From the NCBI GenBank assembly GCA_025363455.1, contig JANYDW010000066.1:1-64000 (forward strand): a stretch of DNA of 64,000 bases. The letters are read 5' to 3'. The position numbers and the translations under genes were made by a program. The stretch comes from Oleiharenicola sp. GTDB taxonomy: Bacteria; Verrucomicrobiota; Verrucomicrobiia; Opitutales; Opitutaceae. Shown piece after piece: positions 140-28,271 of the stretch (positions are counted from its first letter, which is position 1; every line of letters begins with the position of its first letter). The notes under the pieces were generated by a model. The model was not told where the DNA came from, searched no databases, and saw nothing but the letters and a program-made list of their open reading frames with translations.

Positions 140-295
140 GCAAGGTGACCGGTCGCAGCCACAAACAGGTGATGCGGGCTGCGCGCAAGGCGCTGCGCGA
201 AATGGCATCGGCTGGACGGGCGAAAACTCAGAGCAAGACGAGGAACTGATCCGGAGAGAAGCGGAGCAAAAGCAGGGTTGGATTTACCGCTAATG

Positions 296-475
296 GGATT
301 CATCAACGGATGAATCCTTGGACGTGCGCGGCGACTGATCGTCGCCGCTGATTGGCTCTGGGGCCTGCTGATCGCAGGCTGGGATTTTGTGGTCTGCGAC
401 TAGCAGACCCCTCCGAACCTTCACCGGAGACGATTAGTCGGAGGGGTTGAGCAAAGGTTCGCCTGTTGGCGAACC
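296..475. repeat. Array of consecutive perfect hairpins (TRRTC-loop type)
   Basis: GGATTCATC-AACG-GATGAATCC (296-317), GCGGCGAC-TGATC-GTCGCCGC (328-348), GCCTGC-TGATC-GCAGGC (363-379), GGTCTGC-GACTA-GCAGACC (391-409), CCCTCCGA..TCGGAGGG (409-445), GGTTCGCC-TGTT-GGCGAACC (456-475). Confidence 0.85.
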
Positions 476-478
476 TGA

Positions 479-664
479 TTAGTGGTTAACCCCAAACTGG
501 ATTCCGGTTTCCTCGGCTTCGACCTCCAGCCAGAGTCGGATGGCTTCCTTGATATTGGCCAGGGCTTCGTCGCGGGTAGTTCCCTGCGAGTGGCAGCCCG
601 GTAAATCGGGACAGCTCACCGCCCAGCCCTCGTCGGATTGGAAGAGCGTCACGCGGTAGTTCAT
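479..664 (-). CDS. HicB-like type II toxin-antitoxin / HicB-fold protein (61 aa, orphan)
   Basis: MNYRVTLFQSDEGWAVSCPDLPGCHSQGTTRDEALANIKEAIRLWLEVEAEE is the HicB signature (CPDLPGCxSxGxTxxEAxxNIxEAI). ATG at 662-664; the longer ORF start is spurious. Confidence 0.8.
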   Translation of the reverse strand: MNYRVTLFQSDEGWAVSCPDLPGCHSQGTTRDEALANIKEAIRLWLEVEAEETGIQFGVNH

Positions 665-27860: not shown

Positions 27861-27950
27861 GCGCGGCGAGGGAACTGGAACAGCCTGGGTTAGGTCGGCC
27901 TTCATGCCCGATGCATACCAGGGCGTGTATTCAAACCACCCTGAGAGGAC

Positions 27951-28155
27951 TAACCACTGATGCTTCGCCTACCGGCTGCGCTTCAATATCCCCTCCGCCT
28001 AATCGGCTCCGGTTTTGGTTCCGGGGAGCGGCTAATCGCCGCTCGGGAATTTGGCTTGGCTGTCGGCGATTAGCCGACCCCCGAAGCCCAGGGTGGAGCC
28101 GATAAGGCGGAGCGCACCAAGTAGCAGGGCCGTTAGGCGAGGCATGAGTGGTTAA
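27951..28155. repeat. Nested palindrome with two internal perfect TRRTC-loop hairpins
   Basis: Outer arms TAACCACTGATGCTTCGCCTA / reverse complement TAACCACTCATGCCTCGCCTA and CTCCGCCTAATCGGCTCC / CTCCGCCTTATCGGCTCC; inner GAGCGGC-TAATC-GCCGCTC (28026-28044) and GTCGGC-GATTA-GCCGAC (28062-28078). Confidence 0.85.
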
Positions 28156-28271
28156 AACCGGATCGATGGTTCGGCCCTTTGGCGTTGGTTGCAGGGTTTG
28201 ACGACACGCCCTAATCACATGTCGGGGGATAAACCCCGACCTACAAAAGCTACCCGCCCACACGCGAGCCC

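Follow-up and report, generated by a model that had tools for sequence, protein, structure and literature searches.

A three-hairpin interspersed DNA repeat of Opitutaceae whose single units are oriented with chromosomal GC skew

Our analysis identifies a hairpin cluster near the start of a 64-kb window (the whole stretch of DNA analysed) as one copy of an interspersed structured DNA repeat that is, as far as sampled, specific to Opitutaceae. The repeat unit forms three hairpins with covarying stems, and copies consisting of a single unit are consistently oriented with respect to the GC-skew half in which they lie. To our knowledge, most known cases of replication polarity among repeats concern whole transposons, e.g. 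IS200/IS605 and Tn7. A short repeat that combines near-perfect polarity, covarying stems and jointly switching loops is a natural system in which to find a hairpin-reading enzyme, and, in a phylum that has been little studied, it can also serve as a strand marker of the direction of replication. Any complete Opitutaceae genome would allow the polarity test to be repeated. For Opitutaceae, Verrucomicrobia and Lacunisphaera, searches of the literature on REP and palindromic repeats brought up nothing but the Opitutus terrae GTAG REPs; since these searches covered open-access papers, they provide weak evidence that the family is previously unreported.

Structure of the repeat

No other 200 bp of the window are as rich in hairpins as the cluster, which has five perfect ones against a maximum of three in three first-order Markov controls, and both of its strands fold far better than shuffled sequences (z -6.4 and -10.1). 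The initial annotation had described six perfect hairpins; five of them are perfect, and the sixth, the inner H2 of monomer 2, has merely 3 bp plus weak outer pairs. That annotation had overlooked both the build of the cluster and its nature as an interspersed repeat. The window element is an inverted dimer of an alpha and a beta unit (Table 1), and full copies in general are inverted dimers of a ~97-nt monomer. Among 58 dimers that were typed, 37 were beta-beta, 21 alpha-beta and none alpha-alpha.

Table 1. Coordinates of the repeat and of neighbouring features in the window.
Feature	Position	Strand	Basis
Whole element, inverted dimer of two ~97-nt monomers	283..489	.	repeat in own genome; profile match 284-489
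Monomer 1, alpha type, H2 fully paired	283..379	+	model R1, 100.6 bits at 284-379
Monomer 2, beta type, H2 with 3x3 internal loop	392..489	-	model R1, 89.4 bits at 392-488
Terminal motif TTTACCGCTAAT	283..294	+	inverted match of 478-489; unit consensus TAACCRCTRAT
Terminal motif ATTAGTGGTTAA	478..489	-	sequence; gives last codons and stop of hicB-like gene
Terminal hairpin H1, 9 bp, loop AACG	296..317	.	hairpin scan; H1 covariation
Hairpin H2, 8 bp, loop TGATC	328..348	.	hairpin scan; covariation
Hairpin H3, 6 bp, loop TGATC	363..379	.	hairpin scan; covariation
H3 of monomer 2, 7 bp, loop GACTA (minus strand TAGTC)	391..409	.	hairpin scan
Inner H2 of monomer 2, GAC-GATTA-GTC (minus strand TAATC)	429..439	.	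sequence
H1 of monomer 2, 9 bp, loop TGTT	455..476	.	hairpin scan
hicB-like antitoxin gene, 61 aa, neighbour outside the element	479..664	-	PF15919, E 3e-12
Second, diverged core copy	27953..28124	.	profile match E 2e-21
MITE-like ~295-bp element around the second copy, outer inverted repeats TAGGGCGTGTNTTCAAACC	27919-28213	.	

The monomer (~97 nt; family range ~97-125 nt) begins with AACCRCTNATGG, followed by hairpins H1, H2 and H3, and the consensus of 174 units reads TAACCRCTRATGGGATTCRYCAACGGRYGAAACC ... CTCCGRCTNATCGYCTCCG ... GGGGTCTGCTNATCGCAGAC. The loop consensus TRRTC that had been proposed for the cluster was right in spirit and wrong in detail. Over the 174 pooled units the pentaloop of H2 and H3 is (C)TNATC(G), with T at 99%, any base, A at 99%, T at 100% and C at 96%, closed by a C-G pair; the rule does not extend to the whole cluster, in which the outer hairpins (H1) have unrelated loops.

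Standard pairs occupy 87.9% of the pair cells in 88 units, reaching 97% in H1 and H3 and 70% in H2, where the unpaired cells correspond to the beta type's 3x3 internal loop. Cells in which both partners have changed number 340, compared with 110 +/- 14 in shuffles (0/500), i.e. about threefold, and pairing dropped to 31-44% when the stem partners were slid by 1-3 columns as a control. Orthologous copies likewise have stems altered on both sides and loops that are kept. Template-switch correction of quasipalindromes is a possible alternative source of compensatory stem changes.

Loop subfamilies coexist within a single genome, G024 (a complete 4.73-Mb chromosome from a genus other than the window's), in which about ten copies have the loops of both hairpins, H2 as well as H3, changed from CTNATCG to CCAATGG, and a third loop type is found in two copies. 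The two loops of a unit switch jointly, with one mixed copy (L226) as the single exception, which suggests one reader of both loops. A CGGAG motif is conserved ~10-20 nt upstream of the monomers in G024 and in another genome, G030.

Copies and distribution

The window's own genome holds ~20 copies, mostly at 68-80% identity, and within the genus the element was found in 17 of 21 genomes, at 0 to ~60 matches per genome. With a covariance model it was detected in 35/120 genomes and 19/49 genera of Opitutaceae (Verrucomicrobiota), leaving 85 of the 120 genomes without it, and, in a sample of 289 genomes from across the phylum, nowhere outside this family; these large searches used strict filters, under which weak copies may be missed. 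A scan for an internal hairpin in 85,462 species returned 33 loci, mostly in Opitutaceae or other Verrucomicrobiota, and by our estimate chance would produce roughly as many as the few seen in unrelated phyla. Plasmids and phages searched for the element gave no match, and one viral contig gave a weak match. Rfam 15 recognised only a tRNA within the window and yielded no credible match at related loci.

The initial annotation would have been contradicted by such hairpins being confined to two loci, or by random loops at other loci. Neither is the case: the loop motif recurs well beyond the window, in the ~20 copies of its genome and in hundreds across the family, with loop positions conserved at 96-100%. 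By heuristic ORF calls the element is intergenic, with 0/40 monomers of G030 and other genomes, and likewise none in G024, inside predicted ORFs. From copy number and patchy distribution we infer that the element is mobile; no autonomous copy of it was found.

Several copies in the window's genome and in a further genome, G017, sit inside ~295-bp elements with TAGGGCGTGTNTTCAAACC ends, and such ends were detected in 13 of the 21 genomes of the genus and gave no matches in controls. These outer repeats are absent from the window copy. At one locus (G010:C246) the TAGGGCGTGTNTTCAAACC ends lie ~860 bp apart and could delimit an autonomous IS.

The final three codons of the hicB-like gene and its stop codon are contributed by the right end of the window element; the gene does adjoin the cluster directly, as had been annotated (PF15919, E 3e-12). 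The IS21-like end that had been placed at 1-249 has no Pfam match.

Orientation relative to replication

The GC skew of G024 stays negative as far as 1.9 Mb, and from 2.1 Mb onwards it is mostly positive. Twelve monomers located at 0.48-2.05 Mb lie on the minus strand and seven at 2.31-4.28 Mb on the plus strand, so that 19/19 match the GC-skew half as well as the skew of their own 3-kb flanks (p 4e-6). Orientation matches GC skew on 14 of 15 contigs in G030, and in G030 and other genomes together 38 of 40 further monomers agree with it; many of these 40 lie on a contig with others (in G030, 25 copies occupy 15 contigs) and are therefore not all independent. One contig of another species carries at least 17 monomers, all in the same orientation.

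Replication direction was read from GC skew as a proxy. The origin of G024 was likewise placed by GC skew, and the assembly starts at dnaA, located at the opposite skew switch, so that which strand is leading and which lagging is something we infer. A search for SSU rRNA for origin placement gave no matches in any of four genomes and was uninformative. In the sampled blocks of G024 (L241-L260) GC skew is very strong, reaching 0.34, and dnaA lies at one skew switch.

The strand of neighbouring genes does not explain the polarity, since agreement is near half: the nearest genes in G024 are on the same strand as the monomer in 16 cases and on the opposite strand in 22, and in G030 and the other genomes the left gene agrees in 21/38 and the right gene in 16/40 (heuristic ORF calls). 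ORFs in the examined blocks are split 133 vs 135 between strands, without bias. Composition does not explain it either, because a related tandem CCRCNRATGGACRCNRAT repeat, which has the 5' motif in common with the monomer, is non-polar (9 vs 8 loci). GTAG REPs, which are the HUH-dependent repeats known from these genomes, have no consistent polarity. In the G024 blocks mentioned above, seven GTAG hairpins were seen, all on the C-rich strand.

Dimers, the window copy among them, have no clear polarity. Among alpha/beta heterodimers 13/21 agree with the polarity, which is not significant, and for MITE-borne dimers in G017 polarity is absent or not significant. The polarity result consequently concerns the family and not the window copy itself.

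Comparison with known systems

In behaviour the element resembles IS200/IS605 transposons, which insert in the lagging-strand template and whose orientation follows replication (PMC5371812, PMC6006769). Like the element, they and their non-autonomous derivatives have subterminal hairpins on one strand and a replication-following orientation (PMC5371812, PMC6006769), seen here in 19/19 monomers of G024 and 38/40 elsewhere by the GC-skew proxy. The element differs in having three hairpins in ~100 nt, and no tnpA was found in or next to its copies.

REPs and BIMEs (REPINs) of the GTAG and CGTC superfamilies are likewise intergenic, high-copy hairpin units, often in inverted pairs (PMC3733652). 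They share with the element family-specific loops and the gift of stop codons to flanking genes, as reported for GTAG REPs (PMC3733652). However, a REP is one ~25-nt hairpin (unit 20-40 bp), whereas the element packs three hairpins into ~97-125 nt; its consensus of 174 units lacks GTAG or CGTC at the hairpin foot, CGTC occurring only inside the H2 loop or stem of some units. Also, the element does not lie beside the RAYT genes examined, and its single units are strongly replication-polar.

ERIC-like and MITE palindromic repeats resemble the element as interspersed palindromes of ~130-300 bp, and some element copies sit in MITEs, but in the window copy a separable polar unit occurs as an inverted dimer, with no outer terminal inverted repeat, and H2 and H3 loops are conserved while the stems covary. 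With integron attC sites the element has in common single-strand hairpins and, on CANJIU010000146, arrays in one direction. In contrast to attC, it comprises three hairpins with conserved loops scattered round the chromosome, and its neighbouring genes lie in either orientation, including those predicted between the copies on contig C2 of G030; no R-box pair was recognised by eye. As for an intrinsic terminator, one weak match was obtained where 0.6 are expected by chance, and the orientation of the element bears no relation to gene strand. The initial view that the cluster is not a CRISPR, an attC site or a simple terminator is borne out.

Origin of the repeat

We favour, with slightly better than even confidence, a scenario in which the element is a non-autonomous Opitutaceae repeat whose three-hairpin strand was inserted single-stranded at replication forks, the window copy being a later inverted dimer. 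The near-perfect polarity of the monomers is consistent with single-strand insertion into one and the same replication strand, as for IS200/IS605. The hairpin loops of the unit would be recognised by a single-strand-specific endonuclease or transposase, and the unit would enter replication forks as single-stranded DNA; provided that the leading strand is the G-rich one, the hairpin strand would lie in the lagging-strand template. In the window two units would later have been joined as an inverted dimer, comparable to the BIMEs of REPs, and in the window's genus related dimers may have been taken up by MITEs, whose movement probably relied on a DDE transposase, and have spread without polarity. 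A bolder proposal, which we offer tentatively and with clearly less than even confidence, is that the repeat represents a so far undescribed class of non-autonomous single-strand DNA elements, ~100-nt multi-hairpin units that an enzyme reading their paired identical loops would place at replication forks in one fixed orientation, and that loop and enzyme co-diverged into subfamilies (CTNATCG, CCAATGG).

Strict orientation with the GC-skew half, compensatory changes that preserve structure at orthologous sites and the intergenic position (0/40 in ORFs) would also suit a repeat kept for a polar chromosomal function, e.g. a priming, fork-restart or segregation signal that is read from one strand, with wrongly oriented copies lost by selection. 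We hold this to be unlikely, given that copy number ranges from 0 to ~60 per genome in one genus, that 85/120 family genomes do without the element and that subfamilies with different loops occur within one genome. A little less probable again is that resident RAYT (TnpA-REP) HUH transposases mobilise the repeat in trans as a REP-type element. Almost every element-bearing genome of the genus does carry RAYT genes, as do G024 and G030, and the layout of monomers and inverted dimers resembles that of REPs and BIMEs (PMC3733652, PMC6006769), but most of the RAYT genes examined have ~25-nt GTAG hairpins of their own on their flanks in place of this element, a GTAG or CGTC foot is absent from the element, and GTAG REPs are not consistently polar.

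Transposition as a MITE, by a DDE transposase acting on terminal inverted repeats, would account for the copies within ~295-bp elements with TAGGGCGTGTNTTCAAACC ends in the window's genome and G017. Such outer repeats are missing from the window copy and from the monomers of G024 and G030, however, and a double-strand mechanism does not predict strand-polar monomers, which makes this scenario improbable. Hardly more credit, and if anything a little less, can be given to an element acting as RNA, be it a bidirectional terminator, an mRNA stabiliser or a retrotransposed small RNA: the stable fold on both strands, the covariation and a terminator-like match at 362-380 are in its favour, but orientation is independent of neighbouring genes, the terminator match is within chance (0.6 expected), mismatches (G-T 35 vs A-C 28) give no clear one-strand excess, and no Rfam family is matched.

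For the favoured single-strand insertion scenario an HUH-type partner, as suggested in the initial annotation, is plausible given the replication polarity, although none was found and the resident HUH genes (RAYT) own GTAG REPs. A RAYT partnership was considered and rejected, as the RAYT genes whose flanks were inspected mostly had GTAG REPs of their own: at the RAYT loci examined no element lies at the ends, and most carry ~25-nt GTAG hairpins. Screening ~70 Y1 loci of the genus with the element profile gave only four with both, roughly 0.7 kb or more apart. Y1 genes are present and none was found flanked by the element; neither among the Y1/RAYT loci of the genus nor in G024 and G030 was a cognate enzyme found.

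Composite and nested copies

Other repeats occur within or next to several copies. At four loci of the window's genome (L009, L011, L023 and L117) a 58-bp hairpin-rich element (TCCTGTTGCTGCC...GCGGCTGA) lies within the TRATC loop of H3, and three related copies of it were seen elsewhere (C61, C11 and C70). In L096, L094 and L105 the halves of the dimer are separated by other repeats, namely a MITE with TAGGGCGTGTTTGCAAAAT ends and a GTAG REP. Finally, at L336:10781-10845 a tandem GACGCTAAT repeat is fused to the H3 end of the element, AACCRCTNATGG being common to both.
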